From assembly GCA_003056145.1 (NCBI GenBank), contig LSNL01000002.1, positions 1-36,368 on the forward strand: 36,368 bases of DNA. The letters run 5' to 3'. The position numbers and the translations under genes are program-made. Source of the stretch: Parcubacteria group bacterium M10-OD1-1. Lineage in GTDB: Bacteria > Patescibacteriota > Minisyncoccia > Moranbacterales > UBA2206. Shown piece after piece: positions 186 to 32,960 of this stretch (positions are counted from its first letter, which is position 1; every line of letters begins with the position of its first letter). The notes beneath the pieces were generated by a model, which saw nothing but the letters and a program-made list of their open reading frames with translations, was not told the DNA's origin and ran no database searches.

Positions 186-920
186 TTACATTTCCAAACT
201 TTCCCAACTCATCATAAAAATACTTTTTAGTGTTGTGTGTAGAGTTTCGCTCTCAATAATAAGACCCATATTTTCTTTGAAGGAGACAATTCCTATTTTG
301 TTTTTGCCGTATAAATCAATCTCCACTTTTATGGGAAATTTTTGAGCATCAATTATTCTTGTTTGGCGAAGAGATTCTCCTTCTACTTTTTTATATTCCC
401 GTATTTCAGGAGTGTCGGGAGCAATAGCCTTTACCCATATTTTATTTTTTACCCTCTGAGGAACATAATAATCAATAAAATCTTTTCCTAATGTTTCAAA
501 AGCTTCTTCTGAAACCCACGCCAGTATTTCTTGTTTTTTATAATTCAAAAAGTCGCGATAAACGGTTTTAATTCCTTCTGAACCTTCATAGAAAGTTATT
601 TTAGGTTTTTTATCTAAAAAATTAGACATTGCCAACAACTCGGGAACGATTGAATCAAACATGTTTTTCTTTTCTTCTATCTTTTTTCCAATAGATCTTG
701 GATCTTCTGCATAAAAATACTGTTTCTTTCCCTTTTTTAAAGAATTAACAAACCCTTTTTCTTTTAAAGACTCAATAACTAAATAAACCGTTGTTCTTTT
801 TAACTTGGATTTTTTAGCAATCTCTGCAATAGTGGCTTCTCCTAATTCCAATAAAGCCAAATAAGTTTTTGTTTCTTTTTCCGAAAACCCTATATTATTT
901 TTCAATTGTTCATCTAACAT
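186..920 (-). CDS. TrmB-family winged-helix transcriptional regulator
   Basis: 244-aa ORF; N-terminal wHTH (GFSEKETKTYLALLELGEATIAEIAKKSKLKRTTVYLVIESLKEKGFV) typical of TrmB-like regulators, with C-terminal ligand-domain-like region. Confidence 0.85.
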   Translation of the reverse strand: MLDEQLKNNIGFSEKETKTYLALLELGEATIAEIAKKSKLKRTTVYLVIESLKEKGFVNSLKKGKKQYFYAEDPRSIGKKIEEKKNMFDSIVPELLAMSNFLDKKPKITFYEGSEGIKTVYRDFLNYKKQEILAWVSEEAFETLGKDFIDYYVPQRVKNKIWVKAIAPDTPEIREYKKVEGESLRQTRIIDAQKFPIKVEIDLYGKNKIGIVSFKENMGLIIESETLHTTLKSIFMMSWESLEM

Positions 921-1284: not shown

Positions 1285-1342
1285 TTGACATAACGCCATT
1301 TATCTGTTAAGATTTGACTTAGTAAATGAGGTTTCGGATAAA
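1285..1342 (+). promoter_or_regulatory. Two overlapping sigma70-like promoters upstream of the receiver gene
   Basis: TTGACA (1285-1290)-N17-TAAGAT (1308-1313) and TTGACT (1314-1319)-N17-GATAAA (1337-1342); SD GAGGAGG follows before ATG 1390. Confidence 0.6.
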
Positions 1343-1389: not shown

Positions 1390-1899
1390 ATGAAAATTTT
1401 AGTCATTGATGACAACACCCGGAATCTGGAGGCTGCTGTAGAGCAGTTTCCAGATGTCGACATCACCACTGTCGACTCAGTAGAGTTGGCAGTGGAATTA
1501 CTAGCAGGGAAAAAATCAGTTTTTTCCCCGCGGGAACCCAAAACCAGGTATGATGTGGTCTTAATTGACCTCAACATGCCAGCTAGTTTTTTGTCTGTTG
1601 GAGTAAGTCCAGCAGGCAAAAAAAAGGAGGGGGAATTATCCCCTGTTGGAATGTTTTTAGTATTCTTGGCTGCCCGAAACGGCGCCAAGAAAATTGTCAT
1701 GCTGACCGATTCAGGTCACCATAATGACCCGTCCAGTGCAATGATTGACCTGGTCTCATCAGAGGATCTCAAGAAAATCAAAACGTTTTCGCTGGATGGA
1801 GCCACAGTTGTTTTAACAAACAACTGTGGCCTGATTATCCGAACCCCTGGCGGGGAGAGGGTAAAAGACTGGAAAACCGCTCTCTCCTTATGTGTTTAG
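1390..1899 (+). CDS. Stand-alone receiver (CheY-like) domain protein
   Basis: MKILVIDDN and YDVVLIDLNMP match the beta1 and beta3 acidic motifs of REC domains; strong SD GAGGAGG. Confidence 0.75.
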   Translation: MKILVIDDNTRNLEAAVEQFPDVDITTVDSVELAVELLAGKKSVFSPREPKTRYDVVLIDLNMPASFLSVGVSPAGKKKEGELSPVGMFLVFLAARNGAKKIVMLTDSGHHNDPSSAMIDLVSSEDLKKIKTFSLDGATVVLTNNCGLIIRTPGGERVKDWKTALSLCV

Positions 1900-1915
1900 A
1901 GAGTAGTTCATTAAA

Positions 1916-1941
1916 GTGAGTAAGATTGTTCTCTTACTCAC
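1916..1941 (+). other. RNA hairpin (10-bp stem) after the receiver ORF
   Basis: GTGAGTAAGA-TTGTTC-TCTTACTCAC. Confidence 0.75.
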
Positions 1942-1946
1942 ACAGC

Positions 1947-1985
1947 AAACCGCTATACTTAGTTCAAGTATAGCGGTTTTTTATT
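1947..1985 (+). terminator. Intrinsic terminator
   Basis: AAACCGCTATACTT-AGTTC-AAGTATAGCGGTTT followed by a T-rich tract. Confidence 0.9.
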
Positions 1986-4355: not shown

Positions 4356-5615
4356 ATGAACAAAAAAATTTTAATAATTGGAATAGCATTTTTCGTAACG
4401 GCTATTATAACTATGGCAGTAGTATTATTTCTTTTTTCTTATCAACCAGCCCAAACACCGCAAACAGAGGATGTTGGTTTAACGCAACAAGGAATTCAGG
4501 AAGTTGTAAGGGCTAATAATCAATTTGCTTTTGATTTATACTCTAAATTAAGTAAATCAAAACAAGGAAATATATTCTATTCGCCCTATAGTCTCTCTGC
4601 TGCTTTGGCAATGACTTATGAAGGGGCTAGGGGTCAGACAGCTAAGGAAATAAAATCTGTTTTTCATTTTCCTAAAAGTAATATTTTAAGATCTAATTTT
4701 GCTACAATTCAAAATGGAATAAATAAAGAAAATAAATTTTATAAATTAAAAACAGGAAATGCTTTATGGGCTCAATATAATTATCGGTTTCTTAAAAATT
4801 ACACAGACAGAGTAAAAAAATACTATGGGGGTAAGGTAGTTAATCTTGATTTTAAACAAGAAACTGAAAAATCAAGACAGACAATTAATTCATTCATTGA
4901 GAAACAAACTAACAATAAGATTAAAAATTTAATCCCAGCTGGAGTTCTTAGTTCAATGACAAAATTAGTTATTACGAATGCAATTTATTTTAAAGGAAGT
5001 TGGAAATGGGAATTTGATAAATCTAAAACTTCTGAACAGGATTTTAAGATAACTCCTACAAAGGTTGTAAAAACTCCTATGATGTATATGAAGCCAGATA
5101 AAGTCAGATTTGATTACGCTAAGATTAAAGGTTTACAAATTTTGGAGTTGCCTTATAAAGGTGAAAAAATTTCTATGTTGATATTATTACCAACGAATAA
5201 TCTTAATTCCATAGAATCTTCTTTAACTGTCAGAAAGCTTAATGAATATAAAGCTCAAATGAAAGAAACAAAATTAGATTCAATTTCGCTCCCTAATTTT
5301 AGTTTTAATAGTAAATATTTTATGAAAGGAATATTGAGTGCTATGGGTATGCCAACTGCTTTTGGTAATGCTGATTTTTCAGGTATGGATGGAACAAAAA
5401 ATTTACAAATTAGTCAAGTTATCCATCAAGCTTTTATAAAAATTAATGAAAAAGGAACAGAAGCCGCAGCTGTAACAGCAGTTACAATGAAAAACTCAAT
5501 GGTTATGTCAAGGAACATTTTCAGAGCAGACCACCCATTTATTTTTATAATTCAGGAAAAAGGAACGGGCAATATTCTGTTTATGGGACGAGTTATAGAC
5601 CCAACTAAACAGTAA
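4356..5615 (+). CDS. Serpin family protein with N-terminal membrane anchor/signal
   Basis: SPYSLSAALAMTYEGARGQTAKEI, VITNAIYFKGSWKWEF, hinge KGTEAAAVTAV, HPFIFIIQEKGTGNILFMGRVIDP. Confidence 0.95.
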   Translation: MNKKILIIGIAFFVTAIITMAVVLFLFSYQPAQTPQTEDVGLTQQGIQEVVRANNQFAFDLYSKLSKSKQGNIFYSPYSLSAALAMTYEGARGQTAKEIKSVFHFPKSNILRSNFATIQNGINKENKFYKLKTGNALWAQYNYRFLKNYTDRVKKYYGGKVVNLDFKQETEKSRQTINSFIEKQTNNKIKNLIPAGVLSSMTKLVITNAIYFKGSWKWEFDKSKTSEQDFKITPTKVVKTPMMYMKPDKVRFDYAKIKGLQILELPYKGEKISMLILLPTNNLNSIESSLTVRKLNEYKAQMKETKLDSISLPNFSFNSKYFMKGILSAMGMPTAFGNADFSGMDGTKNLQISQVIHQAFIKINEKGTEAAAVTAVTMKNSMVMSRNIFRADHPFIFIIQEKGTGNILFMGRVIDPTKQ

Positions 5616-5793
5616 ATTTTCTGTATCTTTTTTGGTTTTGTTATAAAAAAACTTCTTGCATAGTTAGTCGTATAGGTAATACAAAGAAGAAACAGAAAAA
5701 GTAATTTACAAAAAAGATTGATGAGCTTGAATTTTAGAGAATTTAATCACTAAAAAATTTATAATAATTAGTAATTAAAATAGCGGAGTAATC

Positions 5794-5823
5794 TTTACAA
5801 AAAAAACAATGCGTGCTTATAAT
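5794..5823 (+). promoter_or_regulatory. sigma70-like promoter upstream of the 5909 ORF
   Basis: TTTACA-N18-TATAAT. Confidence 0.5.
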
Positions 5824-5854
5824 AAAGAGTGTTGTTTAAAAATTAGATAGAGGC

Positions 5855-28037: not shown

Positions 28038-30110
28038 ATGAAATTAGAAAAACTTTTTAATCCTCAATCAATTGCGATTGTCGGTGCTTCAGCCGAACAA
28101 GGAAAAGTGGGAAATGCGATTACAAAAAATATCTTAAATTTAGGTTATGCTGGGGAAGTATTTCTAGTAAATCCGAAACACGATGAAGTCTTGGAAAAAA
28201 AATGTTACCATAGTCTTTCTGATATAGAATCAGAGGTTGATTTAGCCGTAGTTGCTATTCCAGCTAAATTTGTTTTGGGCGAAATTGAAAAAAATGCAGA
28301 TAGGATAAAAAATTATGTAATTATTTCCGCAGGTTTTTCTGAAACTGGAAAAGAAGGAAAGGAATTTGAGGAAAAGCTGTTAACATTAGCGCAGAAAAAA
28401 AATCTTAATATTTTAGGTCCGAATTGTTTGGGTTTCATTGTCCCTGCGAATAAATTAAATAACTCTTTTGCAGGCGGAATGCCTCATACTGGAAATATAT
28501 CTTTTATTACTCAGTCGGGAGCGTTAGCGGTGGCAATTATGGACATTGCTAAAAAAGAGGGGATTGCTTTCTCTAATATAATTTCAGTTGGTAACAAAAT
28601 GCAAATTGGAGAATCAGAACTTTTAGAGTTTATGGAGAATGATGATAAAACGGAATTTATTTTTATGTATTTAGAAGGTATTAAAGATGGTTTAAAATTT
28701 GAAAGAATAGCCAAGAGAGTGGCTAGAAAAAAACCAGTAATTATTCTTAAAGCTGGACGAAATGAGAGAACTCAAAAGGCTATTTCTTCGCATACCGGGG
28801 CTTTAGCTGGGAATGATGAAATTATTTCTGCTGTTTTTAACAATACGGGGATTGTTAGAGTCGCTAGCTTAGAAGAACTTTTTGATTTATTTAAGATAGT
28901 CAAGATGAAAAAGAAAATCACAAATGAAAACACAGTGGTTCTTACTAACGCTGGAGGTGTGGGTGTTTTGAGTGCTGATGCGTTTGGTGGAAAAAATATC
29001 AAGCTAGCAGAATTGAAAGATGAGATAAAAGAAAAAATAAAAGAAAATCTACCCAAGGAAGCTTCAGTGGAAAATCCGATAGATTTATTGGGAGACGCTC
29101 AAGAGGATAGATATGAAAAAACGTTGGAAATTATTTCTAATCTCAAAAATATTGGTTCAGTTATCTGCATTTTAACGCCACAAGATCAGACTCCTGTGGA
29201 AAAAATTGCTGACAAACTTATTGAATTTAAAAACAAGACGGGAAAGCTTGTGGTAGCGGTGTTTTTGGGTGGAGAGCGAGTGGAAAGCGCGATTGCTAAG
29301 ATGAGAGAGAATAATATTAGTAATTTTCAGTTCCCAGAAAAAGCTATTTTTGCTATGGATAAATATTTTAAATGGAATTTGTATGCTTCTTCAATAAATA
29401 AAAATTTCGAATATAAAATTAATGAAAGACGAAAAAAAGAAGCGGAGGCTATAATTGAAAAAGCTAAAAAAGAGAAAAGAAAAGCGCTCTATTTTTCTGA
29501 GGCAAGGGAGATTATGGAAATGTACGGAGTAAATACCGTGCCAATCATCAATATTTACCCAGGTAAAAAAGTTAATAGTAGTTTGACTCCTTTCAGATAC
29601 CCAGTCGTTTTGAAAGTGGATGACGATAAAGTTTTACACAAGACTGATCGACAAGGAGTAGTTTTGAATATTAAGGATGAAAAACAATTGGAAAAATCAA
29701 TTTCGCAGATGCAAAGAGATTTTCCTAATAGTAGATTAATTGTTGAATCTATGGTTTCTAAGGGAATGGAACTTATTATTGGAATTAAACGAGATGAGGT
29801 TTTTGGTCCTGTCATTATATATGGTCTGGGTGGAATTTATACGGAATTTTTAAAACTAGTAGATTATTTAATTCTTCCACTGGAGGCTTCCCAAATTCAA
29901 GAGTCTTTATTGAAAGGAAAATTAGGATTTTTGTTTAATGGAGCACGCGGACAAAATCCATATGATGTAAAAGATCTTTCTGAATTATTCTTCGGTGTCA
30001 GTTCCTTGGCACTAGAAGTTTCTCAGATAAGAGAATTTGATATCAATCCAGTGATTACTTACAATAACGGGAAAAAATCTCTGGCTGTGGATGTGAAAAT
30101 CATTCTTTGA
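28038..30110 (+). CDS. Acetate/acyl-CoA ligase (ADP-forming), fused alpha-beta
   Basis: CoA-binding N-terminus, SHTGALAGND catalytic-His region, C-terminal ATP-grasp with VLHKTDRQGVVLNI. Confidence 0.93.
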   Translation: MKLEKLFNPQSIAIVGASAEQGKVGNAITKNILNLGYAGEVFLVNPKHDEVLEKKCYHSLSDIESEVDLAVVAIPAKFVLGEIEKNADRIKNYVIISAGFSETGKEGKEFEEKLLTLAQKKNLNILGPNCLGFIVPANKLNNSFAGGMPHTGNISFITQSGALAVAIMDIAKKEGIAFSNIISVGNKMQIGESELLEFMENDDKTEFIFMYLEGIKDGLKFERIAKRVARKKPVIILKAGRNERTQKAISSHTGALAGNDEIISAVFNNTGIVRVASLEELFDLFKIVKMKKKITNENTVVLTNAGGVGVLSADAFGGKNIKLAELKDEIKEKIKENLPKEASVENPIDLLGDAQEDRYEKTLEIISNLKNIGSVICILTPQDQTPVEKIADKLIEFKNKTGKLVVAVFLGGERVESAIAKMRENNISNFQFPEKAIFAMDKYFKWNLYASSINKNFEYKINERRKKEAEAIIEKAKKEKRKALYFSEAREIMEMYGVNTVPIINIYPGKKVNSSLTPFRYPVVLKVDDDKVLHKTDRQGVVLNIKDEKQLEKSISQMQRDFPNSRLIVESMVSKGMELIIGIKRDEVFGPVIIYGLGGIYTEFLKLVDYLILPLEASQIQESLLKGKLGFLFNGARGQNPYDVKDLSELFFGVSSLALEVSQIREFDINPVITYNNGKKSLAVDVKIIL

Positions 30111-30152: not shown

Positions 30153-30257
30153 CTAAAAAGAATGCAATCTTGAACTTTTTTAGTTGATTTTGCTTCAAAA
30201 ATGTTCTTGGAAAAATATTTGTGAAGGGGGAAGAGGCAAAAAAGAGGAGATAGTCCT

Positions 30258-30449
30258 ATGAAAAAAATCATACAAAAGCTAAAGATACCATTGGATGTAG
30301 TTTCCTTCGGTTTTATTTTAGCCGGAGGATTTTGTTCGGACTGGTTTGAATGGAAAATTGCTTGTAGTTTTTCCTTTATTGGTTTAGTTTTAATTATTAT
30401 TGAAGTACGAACTAATCGCCGTCCTTCCCCTTATGCGAACAGGAAATAA
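30258..30449 (+). CDS. 63-aa small membrane protein, unknown
   Basis: SD GAGGAGA; two hydrophobic segments; stop codon lies within a 13-bp hairpin. Confidence 0.55.
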   Translation: MKKIIQKLKIPLDVVSFGFILAGGFCSDWFEWKIACSFSFIGLVLIIIEVRTNRRPSPYANRK

Positions 30450-30463
30450 TATTTCCTGTTCGC
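30435..30463. other. Perfect 13-bp hairpin overlapping the stop codon of the 63-aa ORF, then a C8 run
   Basis: GCGAACAGGAAAT-AAT-ATTTCCTGTTCGC followed by CCCCCCC. Confidence 0.85.
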
Positions 30464-30597
30464 CCCCCCCTCAAAGATATTTTCTTGCAATTTATTTTTT
30501 AAAAAAACTAATTTAGAATATAGTTTCTAACTTTTTTTGGATAGAATAGTGGTTGAATAAGTGACAATCTGTGTGTGGTTTGATTGAGTGTGATAAT

Positions 30598-30659: not shown

Positions 30660-32960
30660 ATGGATAATAAAACTGCAGGTAAGAAAAAGTATAAGCAGAT
30701 TTCTCGTGAAAAGCAATGGGGAACTGAATATCAAACATTACCACTATCCAATCTTCATAGCCAACCTTCAAGTTTTGCTATTGCTTTTAGTCGCCTCTCT
30801 GTAGTACTGACGATATTTTTTTGGGCGATGTATGTTGTTTCGGTTATCGTCCGCCAACTTTTTGATGGTCCGCAAAGCTATCAATTTACCATGGAAAGTT
30901 TTGGTTATCTAATTATTGTGACTTTTTTAACTTTCTCGGCATTAGTTTATTTAATTGCTCGGCAAGGTGCGTTTCAACGATTTAGTAGCCATATTCGTGT
31001 TCCGAGAGCTACGCTTGATAAATATTTTTTTACGCATCAGCCATCAATTACAGTTTTAATTCCTTCTTATAGCGAAGAGACTCAAGTTATCCGAAAAACA
31101 ATGTTATCTGTGGCATTGCAGGAGTATCCTAATATCAAAGTTGTTCTTTTAATTGATGATGATGCTTCAAAGATTTGTTCTGAGGATATGCTTCGGTTGG
31201 AAGCGACACGGGCTCTTGCTAGTGAAATTGAAACACTTTTAGCAATACCATACAAACGCTTTAAGAAAATATTGAAACGGTTTGAAGAGGCTAATCGGAA
31301 AAATAATATAATAATTAGTAAGGCCGTTGAAGAAATAGCTGCACAATATATTTGGGCAGCAAAGTGGCTAAATACATTAGCAGATAAAGAAGTAATTGAG
31401 GATCATGTAGATATATTTTTTGCTAATCAAGTATTGCGTGAACTTGCTGAAGATTTAAAACTTGTTGGAGAGGCATTAGTAGTTTCGCATAAAGAAGATG
31501 CACAAATTCCAGTTGATCGTCTAATGCAATTATATCGTAGGCTGGTACTAATATTTGGAGCGAACCTAGAGGTCTTTGAACGAAAAAAATATGCATCTTT
31601 ATCACATGAACTGAATAAGGCAATGAACATCAATTCATATATCGGATTGATGGGGGGTATGTATCAGCAGGAGCAAACACCAGATGGAATTGTTTTAGTA
31701 CCGACCATGAATCAATCCAATGCTGATATAATTATTAATGATAGTGAATTTATATTAACACTGGATGCTGACTCTATTTTGTTAAGAGAATACTGTTTGC
31801 GATTAGTCTATTTTTTACAGCAACCTGATAATGCAGATGTGGCTATTGCGCAGACTCCGTATTCTTCTTTTCGCGGAGCTCCTACGCGTGTCGAGCGTTT
31901 ATCTGGCGCTACAACAGATATTCAACATATTATTCATCAGGGGATGAGCTATTATGGTGCAACTTTTTGGGTAGGGGCTAATGCAATAATAAGAAAATGT
32001 GCTCTTGAAGATATAGTTGAAAAAAAATGGGTAGGTGGATTTGAAATTAAAAGATATGTGCAAGATCATACGGTCATAGAAGATACTGAATCAAGTATTG
32101 ATTTGGCGATTCATGATTGGAAATTAGTTAATTATCCGGAGCGTTTGAGTTATAGTGCAACACCGCCTGACTTCGGTTCTTTAGTGATACAGCGTCGTCG
32201 GTGGGCTAATGGAGGACTTCTCATACTTCCGAAGCTATGGACATTGATTCGTAAACGCAAAAATAAAGGTAATCCTATATCAAAAACCGAATTCATAATC
32301 AGACTGAACTATATGACCTCTATTGCTTGGTCAAATATTGGTTTGATATTTCTTTTAATTTATCCCTATGATGGAAGATTATTAAGTCCGTTGATACTTC
32401 TTGCGGCGGTACCTTATTTTTTAGCTATGGCTATTGATTTAAGATATTGCCGTTATAAATATAGTGATATTATTCGTATCTATGGTTTCAATTTAATATT
32501 ACTTCCAGTGAATATTGCAGGAACGCTTAAGTCGCTTGAACAGGCATTGACCACTAAGAAGACACCGTTCGCTAGAACTCCTAAAGTTAAAAATCGAACA
32601 TCCGCAGCGTTGCCGTATGTGCTTTCACCTTTACTTATTGTTGGTTTTTCTTTATTCACATTAGGGCGTAATATTCAAGGAGAAGATTGGGGGAATGCAG
32701 CGTTTGCTGGTTTTAATGCTTTTACATCTATCTGGGCTATTTTTTCATACATTGGAATTAAAAACTTATTTATTGATATTTGGATCGGATTGATAGATTT
32801 ACTTTATGTTGATACTCCTCCTAATAATATAAGCCAAAAATCAAATAAAAATGAATCAGAATTAAATTGGAAAAGTGTGTTGTATCATGGAGAATCAAAT
32901 GGGATAGTTCCTCATGAAGCTACAAAAGAGGTGATAATAAATAAAAAACGAACCACATAA
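30660..32960 (+). CDS. Processive-type family 2 glycosyltransferase, membrane-bound
   Basis: VLIPSYSEE, LLIDDDAS, ILTLDADS, EDTE, QRRRWANGG plus N- and C-terminal TM helices. Confidence 0.9.
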   Translation: MDNKTAGKKKYKQISREKQWGTEYQTLPLSNLHSQPSSFAIAFSRLSVVLTIFFWAMYVVSVIVRQLFDGPQSYQFTMESFGYLIIVTFLTFSALVYLIARQGAFQRFSSHIRVPRATLDKYFFTHQPSITVLIPSYSEETQVIRKTMLSVALQEYPNIKVVLLIDDDASKICSEDMLRLEATRALASEIETLLAIPYKRFKKILKRFEEANRKNNIIISKAVEEIAAQYIWAAKWLNTLADKEVIEDHVDIFFANQVLRELAEDLKLVGEALVVSHKEDAQIPVDRLMQLYRRLVLIFGANLEVFERKKYASLSHELNKAMNINSYIGLMGGMYQQEQTPDGIVLVPTMNQSNADIIINDSEFILTLDADSILLREYCLRLVYFLQQPDNADVAIAQTPYSSFRGAPTRVERLSGATTDIQHIIHQGMSYYGATFWVGANAIIRKCALEDIVEKKWVGGFEIKRYVQDHTVIEDTESSIDLAIHDWKLVNYPERLSYSATPPDFGSLVIQRRRWANGGLLILPKLWTLIRKRKNKGNPISKTEFIIRLNYMTSIAWSNIGLIFLLIYPYDGRLLSPLILLAAVPYFLAMAIDLRYCRYKYSDIIRIYGFNLILLPVNIAGTLKSLEQALTTKKTPFARTPKVKNRTSAALPYVLSPLLIVGFSLFTLGRNIQGEDWGNAAFAGFNAFTSIWAIFSYIGIKNLFIDIWIGLIDLLYVDTPPNNISQKSNKNESELNWKSVLYHGESNGIVPHEATKEVIINKKRTT

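Follow-up and report, generated by a model that had tools for sequence, protein, structure and literature searches.

A Receiver-Like Gene with a Hairpin-Tiled Message and a Fairly Likely Class of Such mRNAs behind rRNA-Like Leaders in a Patescibacterium

Introduction

Can a coding sequence specify a protein and at the same time be shaped to fold, as RNA, along its length? This question is raised by a 36,368-nucleotide stretch of DNA from Parcubacteria group bacterium M10-OD1-1 (the whole stretch analysed, hereafter the window), in which the initial annotation described a receiver-domain gene whose sense RNA seemed tiled with hairpins from near the start codon to the terminator. We followed up this locus by RNA folding, profile searches, and structure prediction, and by screening the remainder of the genome (866 kb, 31% G+C, seven contigs in a 97%-complete assembly) and other genomes of the order. 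The results make it fairly likely that hairpin-tiled mRNAs with rRNA-like leaders form a class in this genome. No description of mRNAs of such a class was found in the open-access literature.

Results

The sense RNA of positions 1390–1985 folds at −251.4 kcal/mol, compared with −160.4 ± 7.6 kcal/mol for 100 dinucleotide shuffles, none of which is as low (z −12.0). The minimum free energy (MFE) of the ORF itself (1390–1899, forward strand, 169 aa) is −213.8 kcal/mol, about 8–9 standard deviations under codon- and codon-plus-dinucleotide-preserving shuffles. For the coding sequence alone, 100 codon-preserving shuffles gave z −9.1, and a second test gave z −8.3 when codons were preserved and −8.6 when dinucleotides were preserved as well, with none of 65 shuffles as low. 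The initial annotation had named this comparison as a check on its proposal, and the coding sequence passes it at z −8.3 to −9.1. Nearly all of the stems that had been read directly from the sequence are present in the MFE structure, which holds 1424–1455, 1466–1495, 1507–1528, 1547–1580, 1587–1623, 1665–1689, 1703–1718, 1729/1799, 1801–1830, the 1844–1855 region, 1916–1941, and 1947–1979. An independent hairpin scan recovered, on the same strand, hairpin 1 (1420–1459; 14 pairs, 1424–1437/1442–1455), hairpin 2 (1466–1495; 13 pairs), hairpin 3 (1504–1531; 9 pairs plus flanks), hairpin 4 (1587–1623; 15–16 pairs, the longest helix of the coding sequence), hairpin 5 (1801–1830; 13 perfect pairs), a hairpin after the stop codon (1916–1941; 10 pairs), and the intrinsic terminator (1947–1979; 14 pairs followed by a T tail). 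The MFE structure also contains a forward-strand multibranch (1729–1799) closed by 10 pairs between 1729–1738 and 1790–1799.

This hairpin cluster is the densest of the window and among the top three genome-wide, and among 140 sampled ORFs of the genome (mean z −0.8) the ORF ranks second in folding z. Another hairpin cluster of the window (30188–30526) lies between one ORF that ends at 30110 and another that starts at 30660. Pairing is local, with 89% of its weight spanning at most 60 nt versus 64% in ordinary ORFs. Around the start of the receiver gene (−18 to +12), pairing drops to 0.44, versus 0.67 in the coding sequence. Within the ORF it is spread evenly over codon positions, and no avoidance relation was found between stems and conserved residues. 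The neighboring dapB gene (2139–2951, 55% G+C) reaches a folding z of only −0.8 to −3; base composition is therefore not the cause of the tiling, and the fold is independent of both codon content and composition. Rfam 15 covariance models gave no gathering-score match and only sub-threshold matches at 1050–2000, on which ground a known ncRNA identity for this RNA was rejected.

The protein matches PF00072 (response regulator receiver domain) at 19.7 bits, under the cut-off of 30.2, and over its N-terminal half only. The acidic pair D7/D8, the D60 phospho-acceptor, and T106 are invariant or nearly so among homologs, and an AlphaFold model (pLDDT 84.5) has receiver domains as nearly all of its best PDB matches, at modest scores (TM about 0.4, E about 1e-3). 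The ORF product is a divergent receiver-like protein and a genuine member of its family. Homologs are patchy in related genomes (their contigs carry the names Uhr-, Zambryski-, Kerfeld-, and Wolfebacteria) and share 27–47% identity with it; none above 47% was found in the order or class sample or in GTDB r220 contigs. A TrmB-type regulator (186–920, reverse strand) is divergently oriented next to the receiver ORF, a layout that recurs upstream of the homolog at five scanned loci (L139, L140, L141, L142, and L146). An endonuclease/exonuclease/phosphatase gene lies downstream of both the window gene and one homolog. In the window, dapB, whose 55% G+C stands against 31% for the genome, is situated between the receiver gene and this downstream gene and is likely a recent transfer. 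The window also encodes a full serpin-family protease inhibitor (4356–5615; PF00079, E 5e-117) in a Patescibacterium. The earlier suggestion that a protein code and an RNA fold are superimposed here is borne out.

Tiling does not travel with the protein family. Among about 35 homologs, most have a folding z of +1 to −3, with exceptions at −5 to −7.5 (L012, L021, L022, and L041), all values being rough at 10–20 shuffles each. Tiling as a receiver-family trait was rejected because the homologs mostly fold ordinarily, and the description of it as a feature of receiver mRNAs has to be given up: the homologs keep the protein, mostly without the tiling. The initial annotation had set against itself the case of homologs that keep the protein and lose the pairing without compensatory changes; at the family level the first part of this is seen in most homologs, and compensatory changes are unscorable at 27–47% identity.

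Tiling does recur elsewhere in the same genome. We screened stretches from all seven contigs by sliding-window folding, hairpin density, and codon-shuffle z of the G+C-richer ORFs, against an average folding z of about −0.5 to −0.8 for the ORFs of the genome. At least three unrelated ORFs are tiled comparably to or more than the receiver ORF. The most extreme in the genome is a 228-aa orphan at C4:10225–10911 (contig:positions; L035:10225–10911), with z −18 to −27 and eleven consecutive near-perfect hairpins; its ribosome-binding site is predicted to be paired (0.74). Others are a 269-aa orphan at C1:42650–43459 (L032:2650–3459; z −6 to −12), a 282-aa ORF with a signal-peptide-like start at C4:26843–27691 (z −6 to −9), C4:11344–11988 (z about −5), and, only moderately structured, an operon of a LysM protein and small secreted proteins at C6:35852–38789 (L062:15852–18789; z −4.6 to about −7), in which a hairpin spans the last stop codon. 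The tiled ORFs encode unrelated proteins, mostly without a Pfam family. Helices in tiled coding sequences reach at most 16 bp, and leader stems of some members reach at least 20 bp. The feature first noted is thus real, and it follows a class of transcripts, unrelated ORFs mostly with boxA-like leaders, instead of receivers.

The only relative found for C1:42650–43459 is in genome G208 (34% identity), where its operon (L078/L080) is also structured. In the same genome, two near-identical long structured leaders (L080, about 90–330 and 5520–5840) stand before different orphan ORFs, themselves structured, as though the leader were a module. Three of the four strongly tiled loci (L032, L035, and L036) have a tRNA gene at a distance of about 0.6 kb or less, in a genome with about 40 tRNAs in 866 kb. 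tRNA-Ala(GGC) occurs in two places (L032 and L044), and a repeated sequence, TTTCGCCGGAGCGGAGGCGAGAG, is found near tRNAs (L032 at about 2085 and 4015; L033:182–454).

The tiling is strand-biased. With all mismatches penalised equally, the stems contain 11 G.U versus 3 A.C juxtapositions, and in each of the seven tiled genes examined the sense fold is stronger than the antisense fold, in six of them by a margin above that of the ORF baseline. The tiled genes appear to be under selection as sense RNA, in agreement with what the initial annotation had deduced from its G.U pairs.

Upstream of the receiver ORF, on the forward strand, the boxA-like GTTCTTTAAAA (1104–1114) matches the published consensus GYTCTTTAANA exactly (PMC5725501). 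The leader is repeated, and this site lies in its upstream copy, which has diverged. These leader copies adjoin a 128-nt direct repeat and have diverged far more than it has; the repeat itself (860–987 and 1118–1245, 98% identical) contains the TrmB gene start. The best promoter, a predicted sigma-70-type TTGACA-17-TAAGAT with an extended −10 (1285–1313, forward strand), has 10 of 12 matches in a consensus scan in which shuffles give similar site numbers. It is followed on the same strand by a predicted leader hairpin, GGTTTCGG...CCTGAAACC (1330–1356), a degenerate boxA-like GTTTTTTTAAAA in the ORF-adjacent leader copy (1362–1373, two mismatches to the consensus), and a putative ribosome-binding site, AGAGGAGG (1377–1384). 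Because the exact boxA precedes the best promoter and the copy on the ORF side is degenerate, the sequence makes a weaker boxA case for the receiver gene than for the other members.

For those members, TGNTCTTTGAAAA occurs outside ORFs exactly three times in 866 kb, in the leaders of C4:10225, C4:11344, and C1:42650, and the boxA-like TGYTCTTTGAAAA lies 175–215 nt upstream of the same three ORFs. In the leader of C1:42650–43459, a long stem accompanies a canonical boxA, TGTTCTTTGAAAAC. Long stems also follow boxA at C4:11344 and in the relative G019 (L129:17235), and likewise in the 16S rRNA leader of the genome itself. A looser pattern, G[ACT]TCTTT[AG][AG]A, gave one antisense and four sense matches in 438 leaders, a scan in which the C4:10050 boxA site was masked by a spurious antisense ORF. 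The sense matches belong to the window receiver gene (1104–1114), C1:42650, C4:11344, and L045:17360–17630. The last of these, on C2, is a boxA-led, strongly folded 0.25-kb RNA (z −4.8) that ends in a terminator-like hairpin and has no Rfam family; it is probably a non-coding RNA and a candidate new ncRNA. Strict boxA-like leader sites thus stand before tiled ORFs and one structured candidate RNA and before almost nothing else, the patterns having been picked after the first tiled leaders were seen. Two structured loci have no standard boxA: C4:26843 has only the diverged GTTATTTAACAATC, and none was seen at the LysM operon (C6:35852–38789).

The search of other genomes is the independent one. 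TGYTCTTTGAAAA was sought blind in 132–133 genomes of the order, and over all matches it was about as frequent as a reversed control. Most matches are therefore chance, and boxA as a general feature of the order was rejected. Among the matches fetched, 13 sites lay outside ORFs with an ORF at most 450 nt downstream; these ORFs averaged z −3.1, and 30 further ORFs from those loci averaged −0.6 (p 3e-4). After two doubtful ORFs were dropped (one beside a tRNA, one without a credible protein), the mean was −2.6, and that of 141 ORFs with a long leader but no boxA was −0.5 (p 9e-5). The strongest was thyX of genome G064, from another family of the order (L194:300–1313), with a boxA-like leader and z −6.4. 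Outliers of the control set (L127, L118, and L180) were dismissed because their ORFs are spurious, overlapping or adjoining tRNAs or a group I intron. In leaders of the receiver family, the looser [AG]G[ACT]TCTTT[ATG], chosen after the leaders were read, matched 10 of 34 in sense and 1 of 34 in antisense orientation, compared with 5 of 94 for other ORFs (p 6e-4). As for the machinery, NusB is encoded at C7:41157–41546 (PF01029, E 1e-34), where its gene adjoins that of RNase III; the 97%-complete assembly yielded no Rho RNA-binding domain.

Discussion

The best explanation in our view, drawn entirely from computation and held with moderate confidence, is that hairpin-tiled mRNAs with rRNA-like leaders form a class, transcribed by a Nus-modified polymerase, in which the hairpins stabilise the message. 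The sense strand of its members would be selected for dense, short (9–16 bp), local hairpins, usually behind an rRNA-like leader, and the layout of a member would be promoter, boxA-like element, one or more leader hairpins, ribosome-binding site, and hairpin-tiled coding sequence. On the nascent leader, boxA would bring NusB/S10 and the remaining Nus factors to RNA polymerase in the manner of rRNA operons, and the Nus-loaded polymerase would pass the hairpins without stalling or terminating. The hairpins would fold on emergence, giving a message that is compact and resistant to single-strand-specific RNases when uncovered by ribosomes; the ribosome-binding site of the receiver gene would remain comparatively open. 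Coding helices, at no more than 16 bp, stay under the approximately two turns preferred by RNase III, whereas some members have leader stems of 20 bp or longer. We infer Nus recruitment, message stability, and function by analogy with rRNA (PMC10250234) and boxA-led mRNAs (PMC5725501). More tentatively, Patescibacteria may have a hitherto undescribed class of mRNAs treated like pre-rRNA, with a boxA-loaded polymerase, co-transcriptional folding of the entire coding region into short hairpins, and perhaps processing at a long leader stem. The resulting messages would be inert and long-lived, with translation on demand, in apparently Rho-less cells.

The same structures could have been selected without boxA or Nus factors playing any part: hairpins would stabilise a small number of messages that are poorly translated or long-lived, and the boxA matches would be incidental to AT-rich leaders. 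Two structured loci of the genome without a standard boxA, and matches in the order near the control level, fit this reading, as does the weak form in which strong mid-coding folding is widespread among bacteria (PMC7063772). It leaves unaccounted for that in other genomes a boxA-like leader predicts a structured ORF downstream, that nearly all such leaders of this genome precede structured transcripts, and that antisense controls are low, and we regard it as unlikely, though a serious contender. We give little credence to the idea that the RNA is primarily a structured non-coding or dual-function one, a scaffold or regulator that happens to keep an ORF. Pairing that is even across codon positions, and the boxA-led structured RNA at L045:17360–17630, which looks non-coding, would suit it, but the receiver family residues, the start codon with its ribosome-binding site, and the TrmB synteny bespeak protein selection. 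Moreover, a common RNA scaffold is unlikely when one genome encodes several unrelated proteins in this way, and no Rfam family matches.

The structures could also have arisen at the DNA level, by short-range template switching that perfected quasi-palindromes, or in horizontally acquired G+C-rich islands where hairpins accumulated unselected. The tiled ORFs are mostly orphans of 43–51% G+C in a 31% genome, and the proximity of three of four tiled loci to a tRNA gene, a usual integration site, would be in keeping with such an origin. Against it, dapB and other G+C-rich ORFs of the same genome are untiled, and base composition or foreign origin alone was rejected on this ground. The excess of G.U over A.C and of sense over antisense folding is unexpected from a strand-neutral process; RNA selection is therefore favoured over DNA palindrome formation, which was rejected as the source of the tiling. 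A DNA-level origin is already disfavoured, and we consider it improbable. A viral or plasmid origin was set aside as well, with no relative in IMG/VR or PLSDB DNA and no PHROG of note.

If the class of hairpin-tiled mRNAs with rRNA-like leaders is real, protein genes whose messages fold over their full length would be carried by cellular chromosomes too, beyond RNA viruses and vaccine designers, and would be tied to the bacterial rRNA machinery. Such extreme natural examples would make the purpose of mRNA structure within coding sequences testable. They would also suggest that protein genes are served by Nus factors in this bacterium, whose tiny genome yielded no Rho RNA-binding domain.

Comparison with Known Systems

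The closest parallel is the rRNA operon leader, where boxA and NusB/S10/NusA/NusG(/SuhB) form an antitermination complex. The tiled class shares its order of promoter, boxA, leader hairpins, and folded RNA, an exact or near-consensus boxA, and the presence of NusB. It differs in that the folded RNA encodes a protein, no leader–trailer helix was identified, the role of Nus factors is a predicted one, and a Rho RNA-binding domain was not found. Positive-strand RNA virus genomes have pervasive ordered structure. As in the tiled genes, their coding RNA is folded along its length, whereas the tiled genes are chromosomal, with a promoter and terminator, and their hairpins are short and local.

Among cellular messages, the boxA-regulated mRNAs (suhB, nusE/rpsJ, and a ParE-type toxin gene; PMC5725501) likewise have boxA in the leader of a protein gene. 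In suhB, however, boxA is repressive, PMC5725501 describes no coding sequence tiled with hairpins, and some of the boxA elements reported here are 200–290 nt from the start codon. Genome-wide surveys of local mRNA folding (PMC7063772) similarly find mid-coding folding that exceeds codon-preserving shuffles and is weaker near the start, but as a weak average trend that is weakest in low-G+C species, whereas here, at 31% G+C, single genes of the genome reach z −8 to −18. The designed 'superfolder' and LinearDesign mRNAs (PMC8940940, PMC7457604) resemble the tiled class in a coding sequence chosen for maximal pairing to the benefit of RNA stability; the tiled mRNAs, by comparison, are natural, and their stems are separated short hairpins.
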